The notes under the pieces are model-generated. The model did not search any database, had not been told where the DNA came from, and saw only the letters and a program-made list of their open reading frames with translations. DNA of 47,458 nucleotides. It comes from an uncultured bacterium (GTDB lineage Bacteria > Cyanobacteriota > Vampirovibrionia > Gastranaerophilales > Gastranaerophilaceae). The position numbers and the translations under genes are program-made. The DNA lies in NCBI GenBank assembly GCA_902794035.1, contig CADBFN010000013.1, forward strand, positions 1 to 47,458, read 5' to 3'. Of this stretch, positions 2,442 to 46,996 are shown one piece after another. How positions within the stretch are numbered: the first letter of the stretch is position 1; every line of letters begins with the position of its first letter.

Positions 2442-4865
2442 TTATAAAATATCTAACGGATCGACATCTATAGTCATACGGATATCTTTCGGAGCATTTA
2501 TTTTATTTAAAAAATTTGAAACAAATTGATGCCCTTTATCTTCAAGTTTATTTTTTATAATAATTTGAAATCTCCATTGACTGTTAATTCGTTCGATTAC
2601 GCATGGCGTTGGCCCAAGAACATCAAGTCTTTCTTTAAATCCAAACTTATCAATCATTGTATTAAGTCTTAATGCAACTTCCTGTGCAGATTTTTCCGCT
2701 CTGAATTTGTTTTCGCTAGACATAATAATTCTTATAATTTGGCTAAATGGCGGATAATCAAAATCTTCTCTTGATACGATTTCTTTTTTATAAAAATCTG
2801 CATAATTTTGTGATTTTGCACTCTCAAGAGCGTAAAACTCGGGATTGTAGGTCTGGAAAAATACCCGACCTTTAAATTCTCCTCTGCCTGCACGTCCTGC
2901 CACCTGAGTCAAAAGCTGAAATCCCCTTTCTGATGCCCTGTAATCAGGCAGATTAAAACTTGCATCAGCACTTATTACCCCAACTAATGTAACATTCGGA
3001 TTATCAAGTCCTTTTGCTATCATTTGAGTTCCGACAAGTATATCAATTTCGCCTTTTTGGAATTTGTCTAAAAGTCTTATGTGCTCCCCTTTGCGAACCA
3101 AAACATCACTGTCAATTCGGGCGATATTATAACCCTGAAAAATTTCTGCAATGTATTCTTCGATTTTTTGAGTTCCTGTTCCGGAATTTTTTAACCCCTC
3201 AAATCCACAGTTTGGACATTTGTCGGGGAAATATTGCGCGTGATTGCAATAATGACATTTTAGCATATTGTCTTTTGAGTGCCAAATCATAGGAATTGCG
3301 CAATTAGGGCATTCTATCACATGACCGCATCCCTGACATTGAGTGTAAGTTGAATATCCTCTGCGATTGATAAGTAAAATAACCTGTTGTTTATTATCTA
3401 AAGTTTCTTTTATTGCGTGAATTAATGGTTGTGAAATCAGGTGTTTATATGCTGCCTGTCCGTATTCCTGCATATTTATAACAGTAACCGGTGCAACTTT
3501 TGCATTGTTGTAGCGTTTGAGCATCTGATATAAATGATTTGAATTAACAGCGTAATAATAGCTTGAAATATCAGGAGTTGCAGATCCCAAAATCAGCGGA
3601 CAATTATTAAATTGCGCTAATTTTTTTGCAACAAGTCTTGCATCATATCTCGGAGCTGGCGATGTTTGCTTGTATGCCCCTTCGTGTTCTTCATCTATAA
3701 TAATTAAGCCGATATTTTGTAACGGAGCAAAAACAGCACTTCTTGCACCTGCAAGAATTTTTATTTCATTTTTATAAAGTTTTTGCCAAACATCATATCT
3801 TTCGCCCTCTGAAATACTTGAATGCCATATAGCAACATCTTTTGTACCAAACTTTTTTGCAAGTCGTTTGGTGAGTTGTGAGGCAAGCGCAATTTCAGGC
3901 GCAAGAAACAAAACATTTTTACCTGATTTTATCGTGTCATCAATAAGTTTAAAATAAACTTCTGTTTTTCCGCTTGCAGTAACACCATGAATTAAATATG
4001 TTGAATGGTTGAACGGTTGAGCATCTGAAGGGTTGTTCTCACCCTCACCCGCATTTGTATCACTCACAAGTTCGTGAACAACTGCTCCCTCTCCCATCGG
4101 GAGAGGGGTGGGGTGAGGGGTCAAATCTTTTTTGTATGTTTGTTCAATATCTGCCTTAATTTTTTCATAAACTTCCTGTTGCAATTCTGACAACTCATTT
4201 AGCGGTTCTGTTTTATCAATATTTAAAATATCCAATGGATTGCGGTAAATTTCTTCTTCGCTTATTTTTACACACCCCAGAGCTTCAAGTTTTTTGACAG
4301 TTGTCCTTGTGGTTTTGGCAAATTTTTCAAACGAAACCAACGGCATTTTACCCTTTTCTTTTAATAATTCCAAAACCTGTAATTGTCTTTTTGTTGCACC
4401 AAAATCTCGTACATATTCTATAGACAATTCTGTTTTAAGCGATTTTTCAATGAGTTTTAGAGGTATTGCCGCATTTAAAACCGTTATCAAATCTGTACAG
4501 TAGTAATTTGCAACCCATTCCAAAAGTTTCAGGTATTCTGCGCTGAATAACGGAGTTTCTTCAATAATTTTTGCAATAGGTTTTGCTTTAATCTCAGGCG
4601 GTAAATAATCACTAAACCCTACACAAAAAGCATTTATCATTCCTTGTCTGCCAAAGGGTACTAATAATGCTTGCCCTATTTTGATTTTATTTTGAAAATG
4701 CAAGGGAATTTCATAGCTAAAAGTTCGAACTCCCATAGCCTTGATATTTACAAGACAAACTGCGTATTTATGAAGTACGGTATCTGAACTATTGTTTTCG
4801 TTTTCACCGCGTTTTTTTAACGTAAGTTTTTGCTCAAATAATTTGTTTTGAATTACATCTGCCAT
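2442..4865 (-). CDS. priA: Primosomal helicase PriA with repeat-derived insertion
   Basis: PriA is the 3'-5' helicase that restarts collapsed replication forks. The order is the 3'-end-binding domain, winged helix, and a helicase core with Walker A GVTASGKTE (about 292-300) and DEEH box. The zinc-binding cysteines follow in CQGCGHVIECPNC and KCHYC...KCPNC. The helicase C-lobe has GTQMIAKGLDNPNVTLVG and QVAGRAGRGEFKGRV. At 807 residues it is somewhat long. Two parts are odd. About 45 residues (roughly 248-291) between the winged helix and Walker A are encoded by a palindromic repeat (4031-4121) plus flanking repeat-like DNA. The first 32 residues also precede the usual PriA start. No obvious ribosome site precedes 4865. 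The gene sits two bases after its neighbour, so translation may be coupled. Confidence 0.96.
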   Translation of the reverse strand: MADVIQNKLFEQKLTLKKRGENENNSSDTVLHKYAVCLVNIKAMGVRTFSYEIPLHFQNKIKIGQALLVPFGRQGMINAFCVGFSDYLPPEIKAKPIAKIIEETPLFSAEYLKLLEWVANYYCTDLITVLNAAIPLKLIEKSLKTELSIEYVRDFGATKRQLQVLELLKEKGKMPLVSFEKFAKTTRTTVKKLEALGCVKISEEEIYRNPLDILNIDKTEPLNELSELQQEVYEKIKADIEQTYKKDLTPHPTPLPMGEGAVVHELVSDTNAGEGENNPSDAQPFNHSTYLIHGVTASGKTEVYFKLIDDTIKSGKNVLFLAPEIALASQLTKRLAKKFGTKDVAIWHSSISEGERYDVWQKLYKNEIKILAGARSAVFAPLQNIGLIIIDEEHEGAYKQTSPAPRYDARLVAKKLAQFNNCPLILGSATPDISSYYYAVNSNHLYQMLKRYNNAKVAPVTVINMQEYGQAAYKHLISQPLIHAIKETLDNKQQVILLINRRGYSTYTQCQGCGHVIECPNCAIPMIWHSKDNMLKCHYCNHAQYFPDKCPNCGFEGLKNSGTGTQKIEEYIAEIFQGYNIARIDSDVLVRKGEHIRLLDKFQKGEIDILVGTQMIAKGLDNPNVTLVGVISADASFNLPDYRASERGFQLLTQVAGRAGRGEFKGRVFFQTYNPEFYALESAKSQNYADFYKKEIVSREDFDYPPFSQIIRIIMSSENKFRAEKSAQEVALRLNTMIDKFGFKERLDVLGPTPCVIERINSQWRFQIIIKNKLEDKGHQFVSNFLNKINAPKDIRMTIDVDPLDIL
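4031..4121. repeat. Family-A palindromic repeat inside priA
   Basis: The stem CCCTCTCCC (4087-4095) pairs with GGGAGAGGG (4099-4107). An outer CCCTCACC near 4032 pairs with GGTGAGGG near 4112-4119. Over 42 aligned bases this copy matches the reverse complement of the intergenic copy at 10610-10651 at 33 positions. It keeps the priA frame open and encodes PHPTPLPMGEG. Confidence 0.85.
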
Positions 4866-5954: not shown

Positions 5955-5975
5955 CTGCTTCTTATTTTGTGAGTA

Positions 5976-6068
5976 GTGAATAGTGAGTTGTGAATAGTCG
6001 TTATCGGTGCTGTCGCACATTTTATAAATATCAAATCCGTAAAGGGCTATTCACAATTTACGATTCAC
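5976..6068. repeat. Intergenic element with 22-bp inverted ends
   Basis: Bases 5976-5997 and 6047-6068 form an inverted repeat with 19 of 22 positions matching. The ends have the iterated GTGAATAGTGA pattern, and the whole unit is 93 bp. Its right end runs into the murT stop codon (6065-6067), so the element supplies the 3' end of murT. It fits a small non-autonomous repeat; no coding sequence is present. Confidence 0.65.
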
Positions 6069-7414
6069 GTTTCACTTTTTTTATTATTGTATTTCATTTT
6101 GTTTAATTTCAATAGTGCCGTATAAGTTGGCAAAATTGTTATATTTTCTTCTATTTTATCAGAACCTGATGCGATTTCAACTGCCGTTTTTAAATCTTGT
6201 TCAATTCTTATTTTGTCAGTGGGAACTCCGGCATATTTTAATCTCACTGCCATATCTTTTGCCCTGATTCCTGAAACAATTATCGGGTTTTGCGTATTTT
6301 TTAATCTCTCAAAATCCGCATCCCAAAGCCATGAAACATCACGCCCATCAGCATAATTATCATTAATCGCAATTAAAATCTGAGAATTTAAATCAACAGT
6401 TTTTAAAACTTCACTTGCACCTGTCGGATTTTTAATAAGCTGAATAAGCGCTTCATGACCATTTATTATTCTTTTTTCCGCTCTGCCGAAAATTGATTTG
6501 TAAGATAACAGAGCATTTTTTATTATTTCTTCCCCAATTCCCAAATACAGGGCGGCTGATGTAGCTGCCAGCGCATTATAGGCATTGTATAATCCTATGA
6601 GGTTTACTCTGAATTCATATGTTTTATTCTGAAATTCAATCCGTAATTCAGAGTAGTTATCATAAATTTTTGCATATCCTTTAAAGGTTAATTCGGGACG
6701 TTTATATCCGCATTTTTCACAATAATAATGTCCCTGTTGTGCAAAAAACTGTTTTGAATATTTAAGTTCTTCTGCGCATACGCATTTGAAAACTTCGCTT
6801 GGGGCAGCAGAAGATGATTTGTGTTTGTCAGAGCAAAATTCTACATCTTCAAATCCGTAGTAAAAAACTTTTTTATCTTTCCCAAGATTCGCAACTAACG
6901 GATCATCTGCATTTAAAAACAATGTCGGATTAGCTTTATCTATAGCATTTTTTATAAATCCTGCCGTAGTTTCAAGTTCCCCGTATCTGTCCAGTTGGTC
7001 ACGAAAAAGATTTGTAACAAGCAAAAAATCAGACGGCATATAATCGTATAATTTTGTAAGATATGCTTCATCTGATTCCAAAACGGCATAATCAAATTTT
7101 TTGCAGGGTAATTTCAGAGCAAATACATTTGCAATCCCTGTGAGCATATTTGCCCCTTTAACATTATGAATAATTCTGTTTTTTTGTTCCAAAATATGTG
7201 CTAAAATCCCTGAAGTTGTGCTTTTACCGTTGGTTCCTGTTATGGCAATTTTATTATCTCCGACATATTTTTTACAGTATGACAAAAAGTCAGGACAAAT
7301 TTTGAGCGCCAGCATTCCTGCAAATGATGTACCTCCGGAGTGTTTTAATATTTTTATCGCTATATAAGCAAGTTTTGAAAATAATAAAGCAAGATAAAAT
7401 CTCAACATTCCCAT
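6065..7414 (-). CDS. murT: MurT, lipid II isoglutaminyl synthase subunit
   Basis: MurT is a Mur-ligase-like ATPase that, with the amidotransferase GatD, amidates the glutamate of lipid II. The 449-residue protein has an N-terminal hydrophobic segment and the Mur ATP loop TGTNGKST (about 59-66). It then shows the MurT-type zinc ribbon (CVC ... YYCEKCGYKRPEL, about 211-240) and a C-terminal DUF1727 region with DGRDVSWLWDADFE, which carries the conserved Asp. AAGGA lies upstream of two closely spaced ATGs (7414 and 7408). No gatD lies beside it or anywhere in the window, although the two are usually adjacent. The last codons and stop overlap the 5976-6068 element. Confidence 0.92.
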   Translation of the reverse strand: MGMLRFYLALLFSKLAYIAIKILKHSGGTSFAGMLALKICPDFLSYCKKYVGDNKIAITGTNGKSTTSGILAHILEQKNRIIHNVKGANMLTGIANVFALKLPCKKFDYAVLESDEAYLTKLYDYMPSDFLLVTNLFRDQLDRYGELETTAGFIKNAIDKANPTLFLNADDPLVANLGKDKKVFYYGFEDVEFCSDKHKSSSAAPSEVFKCVCAEELKYSKQFFAQQGHYYCEKCGYKRPELTFKGYAKIYDNYSELRIEFQNKTYEFRVNLIGLYNAYNALAATSAALYLGIGEEIIKNALLSYKSIFGRAEKRIINGHEALIQLIKNPTGASEVLKTVDLNSQILIAINDNYADGRDVSWLWDADFERLKNTQNPIIVSGIRAKDMAVRLKYAGVPTDKIRIEQDLKTAVEIASGSDKIEENITILPTYTALLKLNKMKYNNKKSET

Positions 7415-9133: not shown

Positions 9134-10087
9134 TTATTTCTTATTCATAATATCTCTAAACATTTTGGCTGTTGTGCTCAATTCTTTGGTAGAACTTGGA
9201 CATCCATGAGTAATTGTAGATTTAGAAGCTTTTGTAAATAATGCCAATTTTTGTTCTTTTTTTAATATTTCATTTGTATAGCCAAGTAATTCCGAAAATA
9301 TTCCGGCGCCTGTTTTATTTTCAGATGAAATACCATCTCTGTAGCGTATTATATCATCCGTAATTTCATATGCTCGCTTTTCATCTAGTATAACTTGTCT
9401 TGCACCATAAATATCAGTGAATGCTCCTTTATTTCTCGGATGAGTGACACTTCTACATAAACCTCTAAAAAAAGCTTGTACTCGTTTAGGGGTTTCTAGC
9501 CTATCAAAGTTCTGTAAAAATTTTATAATATTATCTTTTCCGCCTTGTAACGGAATAGAAGAACGAAACATTAATGTATCAGATAAATCTACATTTTCCA
9601 TTAATTTATATTGAATATCTCTTGCACTTTGTGTTTCATTTAATAATATTTTTTTAGGTAATAATTTCGAAATAAAAGAATTTTGTCCAAATAAATGATG
9701 CTCTAATTCATGTGCTAATACCGAAGGTAAATTTTCATTTAATGGAGTGTATATACCTTTGCACTTACCATCTCCTCCTGTATGTACATAACTTATTCCT
9801 GCAGCATCGTCAAACATGGAAACGCATTCAGTTGCTTCTTTATCATTTATACCATGTCGTAGTAAATCTGCTTTTACTTCTTGTCTGCTTGTACAAATTT
9901 TTACTTTAACTTTAGGTGCATATTTCTTAATTGTCTTTTGTACAATATCTGTAGATATGCTTGCATTGTTTTTTTGTAAATCAACTAATTCATGCCCAAC
10001 ATTTTTACAAACTCTTACCATTTCTTTTTTGGTATATAGTCCAAAATGTTTACCGCAAAATTTAGCAATTTGTAGTCCAAATCCCAT
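9134..10087 (-). CDS. Putative HExxH zinc metallopeptidase
   Basis: This 317-residue protein belongs to no family I can name. The key feature is the zincin motif LAHELEHHLFG, with H126, E127 and H130 as the likely zinc ligands and base. A downstream glutamate in ILDEKRAYEITDD (about residue 232-240) could be the third ligand, as in gluzincins. No signal peptide or membrane segment is evident; the N-terminus is basic and amphipathic (MGFGLQIAKFCGKHFGLYTKK). It stands alone on the minus strand, between the YtxH-cluster terminator and the DUF559 element. A proteolytic function is inferred from the motif only. Confidence 0.7.
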   Translation of the reverse strand: MGFGLQIAKFCGKHFGLYTKKEMVRVCKNVGHELVDLQKNNASISTDIVQKTIKKYAPKVKVKICTSRQEVKADLLRHGINDKEATECVSMFDDAAGISYVHTGGDGKCKGIYTPLNENLPSVLAHELEHHLFGQNSFISKLLPKKILLNETQSARDIQYKLMENVDLSDTLMFRSSIPLQGGKDNIIKFLQNFDRLETPKRVQAFFRGLCRSVTHPRNKGAFTDIYGARQVILDEKRAYEITDDIIRYRDGISSENKTGAGIFSELLGYTNEILKKEQKLALFTKASKSTITHGCPSSTKELSTTAKMFRDIMNKK

Positions 10088-10163: not shown

Positions 10164-10237
10164 AAAGCCCTCTCCAAAGGGGAGAGGGTAGAATTTCAAA
10201 ACGAGATACGAGTTTTAGAAATTCGGGTGAGGGGTTA
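10164..10237 (+). repeat. Family-A repeat, copy abutting DUF559 3' end
   Basis: There are two hairpins in tandem. The first is CCCTCTCC (10168-10175) with GGAGAGGG (10181-10188). The second has GAATTTC pairing with GAAATTC and inner AAAAC with GTTTT. The end GGGTGAGGGGTT (10225-10236) follows. The DUF559 stop codon overlaps the last bases. A diverged copy of the two-hairpin layout occurs at 17991-18071. Confidence 0.8.
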
Positions 10238-10624
10238 AACTCTATTATTTCTCAATTCTCTTAATATTACCTCACAAACCCCGTCAATGTTTTTATCTAT
10301 ATCATTATTCCAAAACCGCAAGACTTTAAAACCTTTTGTTTTAAAAAATTCGGAACGCATCTTGTCATATTCAATATTCTTCGCTTCATTATGCTGTCCG
10401 CCGTCAAGTTCAATAATTATTTTTCTACTTTCACAAACAAAATCTGCAATATAGTTTCCTATTGGAACTTGCCTTCTGAATTTATAGTTATAAAACAAAT
10501 TATTTCGTAAAATGGACCATAATTTTCGTTCTTGGGTTGTCATATCTTTGCGTAATTCTTTTGCCTGATTAATTGTTGAATTCTTATACATAAGAACATT
10601 ATAACATGATTCAACCCCTCACCC
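10225..10624. mobile_element. DUF559 gene bounded by 12-bp perfect inverted repeats
   Basis: GGGTGAGGGGTT (10225-10236) and AACCCCTCACCC (10613-10624) are exact inverted copies that close tightly around the DUF559 ORF. Each belongs to a longer family-A palindromic repeat pointing in opposite directions. This is the layout of a gene carried by its own repeat, comparable with REP-flanked RAYT genes. That it moves, or moves the repeats, is inference. Confidence 0.5.
10235..10591 (-). CDS. DUF559 (Vsr-like PD-(D/E)XK) endonuclease
   Basis: The 118-residue protein is a complete DUF559 domain. It has the family opening KELRKDMTTQERKLWSILR, then FRRQVPIGNYIADFVC and IIIELDGGQH. These give the D...ExD acidic pattern of PD-(D/E)XK nucleases related to very-short-patch repair endonuclease. 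KGFKVLRFWNNDI completes the core. The catalytic residues look intact. It has no operon partner: it sits alone between two inverted family-A repeats, and its stop codon lies in one of them. Its DNA target is unknown; action on the flanking palindromes is a hypothesis. Confidence 0.9.
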   Translation of the reverse strand: MYKNSTINQAKELRKDMTTQERKLWSILRNNLFYNYKFRRQVPIGNYIADFVCESRKIIIELDGGQHNEAKNIEYDKMRSEFFKTKGFKVLRFWNNDIDKNIDGVCEVILRELRNNRV

Positions 10625-10651
10625 TACCCCTCTCCCCTCAGGCGAGGGAAC
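10610..10651 (-). repeat. Family-A repeat, copy upstream of DUF559
   Basis: This 42-bp copy reads outward from the DUF559 start and is inverted relative to the copy at 10164-10237. It matches the priA-internal copy at 33 of 42 bases. It also serves as the intact (empty) site for comparison with the interrupted copy at 10687-10812. Confidence 0.8.
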
Positions 10652-10686
10652 TTTTTACATAAGAGTATTATTACGGAGTTTAATTC

Positions 10687-10812
10687 TTCTCCCTACCCCT
10701 CAGCCATACGACATACAGGCTCAGGGCTTAAACTTTGCGGTTTCCTCTCGCAAAAACATTCACCAGATGTTTTTGCTTGGCAGAGTGCTTTGTATCCCCT
10801 CTGGCGAGGGCA
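10687..10812. repeat. Family-A repeat interrupted by family-B element
   Basis: Removing bases 10702-10794 joins CCCTACCCCTC to TCCCCTCTGGCGAGGG. That matches the intact copy at 10610-10651 across the junction with no gap. Over the 30 bases spanning the junction the two differ at two positions. No target duplication is visible at the insertion edges. It lies in the 317-bp gap between DUF559 and the M20 peptidase gene, which otherwise holds only the repeats listed here. Confidence 0.75.
10712..10794 (-). mobile_element. Family-B 83-bp element, copy 1
   Basis: The reverse complement matches 46881-46963 at 80 of 83 bases. It contains a perfect 10-bp stem (GCAAAAACAT with ATGTTTTTGC on the element's own strand) around a seven-base loop, with partly paired flanks (CTCT/AGAG). 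No open frame is large enough for a transposase. It looks like a non-autonomous insertion sequence relic. Confidence 0.75.
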
Positions 10813-10908: not shown

Positions 10909-12072
10909 ATGAATATAGAAGATTTGAGAAAAGAAAACGAACTTGTTGATCTGTTTTGTTCTTTGGCGGAAATCCCGTCACCATCAAGACAGGAAGAAAA
11001 AGTTATAGATTGGATTTGTAATTACTGCAAAGACAACAATTTAAACTGTGAACAGGACGATTATAAAAATATATATATAACAATTCCTGCAACAGACAGC
11101 ACAAAAGAGCCGATTTTATTATCCTCTCACCTTGATGTAATCGGGGATGATTCGCCTGTCATTCCTTATTTAGACGGTGATTTGATTAAAGCAAAGGGCA
11201 GAACTTTAGGTGCTGATGATAAAGCAGGTGTTGCTAATGCGTTGTATTTTGCAAAATATTTAAACAAAAGAACAGATTTATCTCATGGCGGACTTGAAAT
11301 TCATTTTACCCGTGATGAAGAGGACTCTATGAGCGGAATTAAAAACACAGATTTCAATAAAATAAATTCAAAATATGTACTTGTATTGGATAGTGATGCT
11401 TTAGGGCAATGTCTTGTTGCCGGGGCAAGTTATGTAATGATTGATTTGAAAGTAAATGCTCCAAAGGGCGGACACTCAGGCAACGACATTGGGGACCCGA
11501 CAAGAGCAAATGCGACAAAACTTATTGCGGATTTGGTGTCTAAACTCCCGCAGGGTGCATATTATTGTGAAAACGGACAGGTTATAACATCTTGCAACAT
11601 TGGCGGAATTGAATCAGGTGATGTTACGGTCACAAATGTCATAAATACAGATGCTCATGCAACTTATTCTTTGAGGAGTTCCGATAAGAAAAAAGAAGAC
11701 GAACTTATCGCCAAAATGCAGGGTATTGTTGATGAATTTAATAAAGAACACGAAGGAATTGCAACAGCTGAGATTACTTTTACCGTAAAAATGCCTATGT
11801 TTGAAAAAAATGATGATGAATATTTGCCTATTCTTTTTGAAACGGTTGCAAAAAAACTAGGTATAGAACCTGAAATTTCATCGTTCCATGCAGGTGCAGA
11901 AACTCATATTTATGCAAACAAAACAAACGCTAAAGGTGAAAGATTTTCGCCATATCTTTTGGGGCTTGCAACTGTTTGTAATATGCACTCTGCAAGAGAA
12001 TATGTCGATTACAAAACAATGCTCAAAGGGCAGGAACTCTTACAGGCACTTTTTGAGGCACATAATAAATAG
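10909..12072 (+). CDS. M20-family zinc peptidase (PepT-like)
   Basis: This 387-residue protein matches the M20/M25/M40 peptidases, nearest in pattern to tripeptidase T-like enzymes that remove N-terminal residues from short peptides. The metal-site motifs are SSHLDVIGDD (His and Asp), LGADDKAGVA (bridging Asp), TRDEEDSM (catalytic Glu and ligand) and FHAGAETHIY (C-terminal His ligand). The dimerisation domain lies between, with KGGHSGNDIG. GGAGAG lies about seven bases before the ATG, downstream of the shared palindrome. The TAG stop overlaps the GTG start of the next gene (TAGTG), indicating coupled translation. Confidence 0.92.
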   Translation: MNIEDLRKENELVDLFCSLAEIPSPSRQEEKVIDWICNYCKDNNLNCEQDDYKNIYITIPATDSTKEPILLSSHLDVIGDDSPVIPYLDGDLIKAKGRTLGADDKAGVANALYFAKYLNKRTDLSHGGLEIHFTRDEEDSMSGIKNTDFNKINSKYVLVLDSDALGQCLVAGASYVMIDLKVNAPKGGHSGNDIGDPTRANATKLIADLVSKLPQGAYYCENGQVITSCNIGGIESGDVTVTNVINTDAHATYSLRSSDKKKEDELIAKMQGIVDEFNKEHEGIATAEITFTVKMPMFEKNDDEYLPILFETVAKKLGIEPEISSFHAGAETHIYANKTNAKGERFSPYLLGLATVCNMHSAREYVDYKTMLKGQELLQALFEAHNK

Positions 12073-46866: not shown

Positions 46867-46996
46867 GTCATTCTGAACTTTACAAAGCACTCTGCCGAGC
46901 AAAAACATCCGGTGAATGTTTTTGCGAGAGGAAACCGCAAAGTATAAGCCCTGAGCCTGTATGCATGGGAGCGCAGCGAGTCGCTGTTTCAGAATC
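46867..46996 (+). repeat. Family-D palindrome split by family-B element
   Basis: GTCATTCTGA (46867-46876) and GCGCAGCGAG (starting at 46971) are the two parts of a palindrome like that at 47038-47062. The 83-bp family-B sequence lies between them. The right part continues to CAGAATC near 46996. Confidence 0.6.
46881..46963 (+). mobile_element. Family-B 83-bp element, copy 2
   Basis: This copy matches the reverse complement of 10712-10794 at 80 of 83 bases. The hairpin GCAAAAACAT (46899-46908) with ATGTTTTTGC (46916-46925) is perfect. It has no coding potential of its own. Confidence 0.8.

Follow-up and report, generated by a model that had tools for sequence, protein, structure and literature searches.

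A DUF559 nuclease gene between inverted PIT/TM-type palindromic repeats, a candidate for the enzyme that spreads them

Introduction

RAYT transposases lie between inverted REPs and are linked to the spread of these repeats. Does a nuclease of a different family stand in the same relation to the palindromes around it? The question is raised by a locus in the window, the whole stretch of 47,458 nt analysed here, which belongs to a 1.79-Mb draft genome of 47 contigs (G000 in the comparisons). In the window a DUF559 gene is closed in on both sides by inverted palindromic repeats, and an earlier note on this DNA had proposed a nuclease-repeat pairing that follows RAYT logic with a different enzyme. 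The repeat in question, the PIT/TM motif, is found in many bacteria, its means of spread so far unexplained. A gene that accompanies the repeats makes the question of their spread directly testable, e.g. with ycjD of E. coli K-12.

Results

The DUF559 gene and its bracketing repeats

The ORF was assigned to PF04480 (DUF559) by Pfam with 141 bits against a cut-off of 20.6 (E 1.4e-41). The earlier note had placed it between exact inverted 12-mers, which was confirmed: GGGTGAGGGGTT is present at 10225-10236 on the plus strand and at 10613-10624 on the minus strand, one copy on each side of the gene. With up to one mismatch the window contained three matches to GGGTGAGGGGTT, while 0.03 were expected from shuffling. 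The stop codon (10235-10237) indeed lies partly in a repeat as had been claimed, overlapping the left 12-mer by two bases, and 21 nt lie between the start codon and the 12-mer on the right. Each 12-mer also ends a longer repeat, again in agreement with the earlier note; it is the outer arm of CCCTCTCC-loop-GGAGAGGG plus GGGTGAGGGG and faces the gene on both sides. The combined pattern matched the window exactly at two places, and 100 shuffles produced no match. The left repeat consists of a CCCTCTCC/GGAGAGGG hairpin (10168-10188), an A/T-rich hairpin and the gene-facing third arm GGGTGAGGGGTT. In the right repeat the third arm is followed by CCCTCTCC (10628-10635) and GGCGAGGG (10641-10648). 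Folding as single-stranded DNA yielded a z of -6.2 against shuffles for the left repeat and a weak -1.5 for the right one. The features are collected in Table 1.

Table 1. Positions of the DUF559 unit and related features in the window
Feature	Position	Strand	Basis
DUF559 gene, 118 aa, predicted Vsr/EDxHD-type nuclease fold	10235..10591	-	Pfam, AlphaFold model, PDB neighbours
Left PIT-type repeat	10164..10236	+	pattern search, single-strand DNA fold
Right PIT-type repeat	10613..10648	-	pattern search, single-strand DNA fold
Further PIT-like arms, split by an 83-nt repeat (10712-10794)	10690..10811	+	
Stretch missing at the same spot in the close relative G004, about 619 nt	10176..10794	.	
Solo long-form repeat, in frame inside priA	4042..4122 (about)	+	pattern search, reading frame, fold
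priA, host gene of the in-frame solo repeat	2442..4865	-	

G000 has three full DUF559 genes, two of which are flanked on both sides. The third (L003, G000:C1:147701-148009) is without flanking repeat arms and grouped weakly with copies from distant kin in a tree; perhaps it represents a different DUF559 subfamily.

Several neighbouring features were recorded. The 83-nt repeat that splits the further PIT-like arms beside the unit has a second copy at 46881-46963, a 96% inverted match. At three other loci (L015, L016 and L018) PIT arms run into GGGATACAAAGC, which resembles one end of the 83-nt repeat, and the latter looks like a second-order insert in PIT hairpins. A 317-aa ORF (9134-10087) adjoins the unit; it had no Pfam match at E 0.001, and its HELEH motif suggests a metalloprotease. 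A separate inverted repeat with GTGAGTAGTGAATAGTGAG-type arms, 29 nt apart, is located at 5969-6075 at the end of the 6065-7414 ORF.

Identity and distribution of the repeat

Judged by its consensus, the bracketing repeat is the published orphan PIT/TM (TMECO) "intrastrand triplex" motif. It has the three arms of that motif, i.e. a hairpin and a G-rich third arm, and agrees with Table 1 of Holder et al. 2015 (PMC4666352), where CCCTCTCCC-loop-GGGAGAGGG-TTA/CCG-GGGTGAGGGG is given. That paper reports no mobility-giving activity near the motif, and the words 'DUF559' and 'endonuclease' are both absent from its text.

Copies of the repeat had been described as scattered, with one inside priA, and this held. 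The G000 genome (47 contigs) contained GGAGAGGGNNNGGGTGAGG in eight exact copies and in 14 at up to two mismatches; a reversed-pattern control, a near-mirror of the motif, gave 10 at two mismatches, so only near-exact copies are clear. In the solo copy in priA the outer arms CCCTCACC/GGTGAGGG surround the CCCTCTCC/GGAGAGGG hairpin, and the region 4034-4124 folded with a z of -6.3 against shuffles of single-stranded DNA. Naming the repeat as PIT/TM goes beyond the earlier note, as do the whole-unit in-frame insertions reported below.

DUF559 genes are flanked by inverted repeats in many phyla

The earlier note had proposed to ask whether DUF559 genes are flanked by matching inverted palindromes more often than other genes. 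We took the best 80 of 574 confirmed DUF559 loci, picked by protein similarity alone; some of them come from one genus and are therefore non-independent. As controls we used other ORFs of these loci that were at least 90 aa long and lay more than 400 nt away from DUF559. Among the 76 loci of this sample with enough flank, arms were present within 150 nt on both sides in 53, on one side in nine and on neither in 14. The corresponding numbers for 446 control ORFs were 1, 32 and 413 (Fisher 5e-53). Arm density was 0.68 per 50 nt within 150 nt of a DUF559 gene and 0.011 far away. Without recourse to a motif, inverted-flank similarity exceeded the 99th percentile of 442 controls in 60 of 78 loci from the best 80 of 574. 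When a locus was counted as positive for either two-sided arms or a 300-nt inverted-flank score beyond the 99th percentile of 422 controls, 66 of these best 80 qualified. Thus the proposed comparison supported the pairing. DUF559 loci lacking flanking repeats had been named in advance as evidence against it, and that objection stood in part: 14 of the 80 lacked them by either test, six of these having one-sided arms. The positive loci are from what we take to be Melainabacteria, Alpha-, Beta- and Gammaproteobacteria, Desulfobacterota, Chloroflexi, Planctomycetota, Aminicenantes and Patescibacteria.

Among the strong DUF559 matches listed for 98 kin genomes (E <1e-20; the short fragments L222 and L223 uncounted), 51 of 88 had arms on both sides, 19 on one and 18 on neither. 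The pairing of DUF559 with inverted palindromes holds across many phyla. The inference that a nuclease and its repeats are joined in the RAYT manner by a different enzyme is thereby supported; that the enzyme spreads the repeat would be a step further. In E. coli, PIT arms were found only downstream of ycjD. A search of viral contigs with E. coli YcjD gave eight pattern matches, none of which was confirmed. YcjD/DUF559 occurred in 3 of 50,697 phage records and in 45 of 72,556 records of a plasmid collection, several of the latter being chromosome-sized.

Co-occurrence of gene and repeat

Of the kin genomes, 37 of the 42 that have a full DUF559 gene and 10 of the 56 that lack one contained the repeat at up to one mismatch (P 1.6e-12, background unsubtracted). 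Kinship explains part of this co-occurrence. Within the window's own genus at least three repeat copies were present in 25 of 34 genomes with DUF559 and in 4 of 12 without, a modest excess (P 0.019). Genomes without a full DUF559 gene can carry a number of repeats, e.g. 15 in G020, eight in G030 and nine in G097. Repeats equally common without DUF559 would have spoken against the earlier proposal; repeats do persist in genomes without the gene, but they are far from equally common there.

Could the RAYT-type (Y1) transposases of the hosts move the repeats, DUF559 being incidental? Y1_Tnp matches do occur in 25 of 60 genomes searched. Yet there is none in G000, and among G000-G036 the number of repeats was not clearly higher in genomes with Y1_Tnp (median 6 vs 3, P 0.065). 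Y1 transposases do not explain the repeats, and we rejected this reading as extremely improbable on account of the missing match in G000.

Insertion in frame into host proteins

A single reading frame often runs open through the whole unit, repeats included, and the unit is accordingly found in translated form within unrelated proteins. In 14 frames scanned, Pfam placed DUF559 within, or in fusion with, M14 peptidase, PrmA, UvrD helicase, class I tRNA synthetase (read as IleS- and ValS-like) and radical SAM frames, and further HI0933, PolyA_pol, Mfd, GHMP kinase, MmeI, PriA, HsdS-type and SpoU methylase frames. The ValS-like frame L100, from a Rickettsiales genome, has a second in-frame PIT-like peptide beside the DUF559 unit.

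The M14-type gene was matched in 86 of 98 genomes and carried the unit in 11. Of 28 M14-type loci read, those without the unit were empty or had short remnants, with one unresolved. We do not claim several insertions at this site: a free tree, from which L038 and L173 (internal stop) were left out, splits the copies, and an AU test does not reject a single clade (p 0.18). Thirty priA loci were read, with an in-frame solo repeat in two, one of them that of the window, shorter inserts in three and an empty site in 25. L102 has a full repeat-DUF559-repeat at the same place of priA as the solo repeat of the window.

These insertions bear on the view that the repeats are ordinary transcription terminators on both sides of a gene. 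They are hairpins and many are intergenic, and in the Enterobacter sp. 638 paper termination was presumed for that strain's own hairpin, present in 100 copies (PMC2869309). However, other genes in the same loci are without repeats, and earlier work cited by Holder et al. found neither promoter nor terminator activity (PMC4666352). Because copies lie in frame in coding genes, we rejected the terminator reading, which is hardly credible.

Occupied and empty sites

The earlier note had called for strains with an empty site. Such sites were found at the M14-type gene, at priA, upstream of a Sphingopyxis gene and at the site of the window's own unit. For the latter, the gene at 10909..12072 (+), which we take to be pepT-like, a peptidase gene, served as anchor. 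In 30 loci read from 60 searched genomes DUF559 was present at the pepT site in G000 only; G039, outside that sample, also has it. In G004 the PepT segment is 98% identical, and a single short hairpin connects window positions 10175 and 10795, with a 3-nt overlap at the join. The site has a degenerate hairpin in G002 and no motif arm in G012 and G017. The 317-aa ORF next to the unit was not found at the pepT site in G002 and G004 either. Because this ORF is also missing, the site gains and loses DNA in general.

The Sphingopyxis anchor is presumably an lpd-like gene. Upstream of it, 29 loci (matches in 60 genomes; L314, a partial match, left out) comprised four empty sites, six type-1 units, nine type-2 units and one solo repeat. 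Type-2 units are 47-54% identical to type 1 and have different repeats. The remaining nine loci had other inserts without a DUF559 match (L317, L319, L320, L324, L326, L329, L331, L333 and L334), and the spot resembles a general hot spot for insertions. No target-site duplication was recognised at the pepT and lpd-like sites. E. coli was dropped as an empty-site test: in the three strains read with a match that ends after sapF, efflux genes come next, and the site is no clean empty one.

Pairs of units were compared in addition. L032 and L046 share 92% identity, and no homology was found between their flanks; the pairs L019/L021 and L026/L183 are alike at 82%. In 60-nt bins, identity between L188 and L189 is 98-100% across the gene and the first 120 nt upstream of it and drops to 70-81% further upstream; downstream it is gapped and mixed (68-98%), part of it 90-98%. 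As far as such comparisons of sequence can tell, the repeat-DUF559-repeat unit behaves as a mobile one.

Does the repeat variant follow the enzyme?

Flank repeats were compared for 81 of the 88 listed kin units, i.e. those with 120 nt of flank on both sides and no stop (L038 and L173 out). For 3083 pairs from different genomes outside synteny, similarity of the flank repeats correlated with that of the proteins (Spearman 0.33; 0 of 500 permutations reached it). For the 64 pairs of units from the same genome, flank-repeat similarity stayed at the baseline level (median 36.5) that unlike proteins from different genomes also show. Within these same-genome pairs repeat and protein similarity still rose together (Spearman 0.46). 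In the Sphingopyxis genomes G109 and G110 an exact spaced repeat occurred four times each, and all eight copies are pairs around four DUF559 genes. Some loci without the canonical words have a repeat of the same design in other letters, e.g. CCTTCCCCC/GGGGGAAGG-CT-GGGATGGGGG in Pseudoxanthomonas (L106 and L136) and another one in Mesorhizobium (L148 and L154).

Genome-wide counts of variants gave a mixed picture. The CCTTCCCCC-type variant of Pseudoxanthomonas, counted in 38 genomes at up to one mismatch, had 13 copies in the genome of L106 and three in that of L136, two of which are by position the pair around the gene. The genome of L118 has 15 copies of a close form. There were 48 copies in the genome of L127, yet its DUF559 carries another word, and eight in that of L113, yet this locus tested negative. 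G114 had seven copies and the remaining 32 genomes at most four. G006, a kin genome, has a single copy of the variant GGGAAGGNNGGGATGGGG, 31 nt from a DUF559 gene (L021), and of three copies in G014 one lies 21 nt from such a gene (L019). Canonical copies numbered 208 in G107, 52 in G115, 36 in G118, 33 in G100 and 29 in G102, and the tight canonical form adjoins the DUF559 gene in not all of these. The unit of G115 is of the spaced form, and 38 exact copies of that form are present in its genome. G103 and G106 had no canonical copies although their units carry arms at other spacings, and G142 had 45 although L139 tested negative. Spaced copies numbered 19 in G128 and 24 in G129 although L142 and L151 carry another form. 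To judge from these comparisons, flank-repeat similarity tracks the protein rather than the genome, and the genome-wide variant counts back this in part.

The counts also bear on the possibility that some other activity, of the host or of a mobile element, moves the repeats, and that DUF559 is repeatedly carried between two of them without helping. This is in line with the repeats present in 10 of the 56 genomes that lack a full DUF559 gene and with the mixed counts per genome. On the other hand, bracketing of this single small nuclease family recurs in many phyla, and 445 of the 446 other ORFs tested in its loci are without arms on both sides; repeat likeness follows the protein; and in two Sphingopyxis genomes every exact spaced-repeat copy belongs to a DUF559 unit. 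Because the variant counts are mixed, we raised our estimate for such a passenger very slightly, to unlikely but worth keeping in mind, and lowered by a similar trifle that for a nuclease acting on its own repeats, which we still regard as the probable explanation.

The enzyme

The AlphaFold model of the window protein had a pLDDT of 88.6 and a pTM of 0.83. Its best match in the PDB was 3HRL, an uncharacterised DUF559 protein (E 2.5e-8), followed by 3R3P, the homing endonuclease I-Bth0305I (3R3P_B, E 4.8e-5, TM 0.64/0.76). A sequence profile also found 3R3P (E 2.9e-4); PDB profile matches with E >0.05 were weak and taken as chance. Vsr (1CW0) ranked seventh (E 0.019) after mitoribosomal chains and PvuRts1I. 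E21, D50, E61, D63, H67 and D76 were invariant in 45 aligned sequences including that of the window (L121, with an internal stop, left out). The window DUF559 is predicted to have the Vsr/EDxHD-homing fold. In published work YcjD is described as a PD-(D/E)XK relative of Vsr whose profile finds Vsr at 1e-5 (PMC1189080), one DUF559 gene is called EDxHD in passing (PMC9403480), and the EDxHD family is described (PMC3943268).

A fold resembling Vsr also fits a host repair enzyme that sits beside hairpin repeats to mend or tame them and does not drive their spread. In Caulobacter a DUF559 protein was read as such a Vsr-like repair enzyme, VsrA, and was linked to SOS induction when a solitary cytosine methylase is missing (PMC12907096). 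A host repair gene, however, need not have accompanying mirrored repeats, unrelated surroundings or in-frame sites in unrelated proteins, and we consider this reading quite improbable.

Discussion

We favor the view that the window shows a homing-like Vsr-fold nuclease that is carried by, and probably acts on, its own palindromic repeats, a RAYT/REP-like way of working with an unrelated enzyme; on balance it is the likely reading. DUF559 is a strong candidate for what spreads the PIT/TM repeats. We infer that it acts on the repeat and that homing is the route, and likewise any part it has in the arrival of gene-less repeats at new sites. The window would then show a small mobile palindromic element of about 0.5 kb in its gene-bearing state, i.e. 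repeat, DUF559 and inverted repeat, and the solo PIT/TM repeats would be its gene-less relatives. Most likely the enzyme would recognise its own repeat variant by the folded arms and nick or cut there. The site could then be repaired from an occupied copy, with the shared arms as guide, which would place the gene between two repeats in the style of homing endonucleases; deletion could return the site to one hairpin or none. Being open in one frame through both repeats, the unit could sit in a host protein without stopping it. Vsr enzymes nick T:G mismatches. As a guess, in repeats that have CCCTCGCC as first arm, its pairing with the third arm GGTGAGGG would put a T:G mismatch, the lesion of Vsr, within the repeat.

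A wider proposal is that DUF559/YcjD is the missing mobility enzyme of PIT/TM bacteria-wide. The unit would be a new transposase-free class with a hairpin-directed homing nuclease, inserting into intergenic and coding DNA and translatable inside its hosts, and the PIT/TM repeats of E. coli, cyanobacteria and many others would be gene-less descendants. We put this forward tentatively, as somewhat less than an even prospect. A nuclease that goes with the repeats would in any case add a second enzyme, unrelated to RAYT, that follows the REP/RAYT logic. It would suggest what this nuclease family, so far only a DUF, is likely to do, and the palindromic elements that lie in frame in coding genes would gain a counterpart with an enzyme of its own. 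In the literature searched, which covered few subscription papers, no paper tying DUF559 to PIT/TM repeats was found.

How does the unit compare with known systems? Its repeat is the CCCTCTCCC-loop-GGGAGAGGG-NNN-GGGTGAGGGG of PIT/TM, but unlike in Holder et al. (PMC4666352) it is tied to a gene. As to insertion sequences, DUF559 is no transposase family, and duplicated target sites were not recognised at the pepT and Sphingopyxis sites. The predicted fold is shared with Vsr, the very-short-patch repair endonuclease; DUF559 differs in being a Pfam family of its own and in having repeats on both sides. I-Bth0305I, an EDxHD homing endonuclease, appears to be the closest solved fold apart from DUF559 itself, the predicted model having the fold of its catalytic domain. 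Like homing genes the unit has occupied and empty sites, a polymorphism compatible with homing. Unlike enzymes of the I-Bth0305I type, DUF559 is without a DNA-binding tail in its 118 aa and is bounded by palindromic repeats. It stands alone or is fused in frame, no intron or intein was seen, and Rfam at the gathering threshold had no match in the whole window. The palindromic elements of Rickettsia (RPE) are likewise in frame in unrelated genes, yet in the part of the source available they are about 150 bp long and have no enzyme (PMC10969869); the DUF559 unit carries a nuclease and is found in many phyla. A parallel in organisation is RAYT with REP/REPIN: a small single-gene nuclease lies between inverted palindromic repeats that are dispersed and also found alone, and enzyme and repeat go together, with genome-wide variant counts that are mixed in the present case. 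In contrast to RAYT, the enzyme is a PF04480 protein of the PD-(D/E)XK/Vsr fold and not an HUH tyrosine (Y1) transposase, of which G000 has no match, and copies of the DUF559 unit are also found in frame inside proteins.
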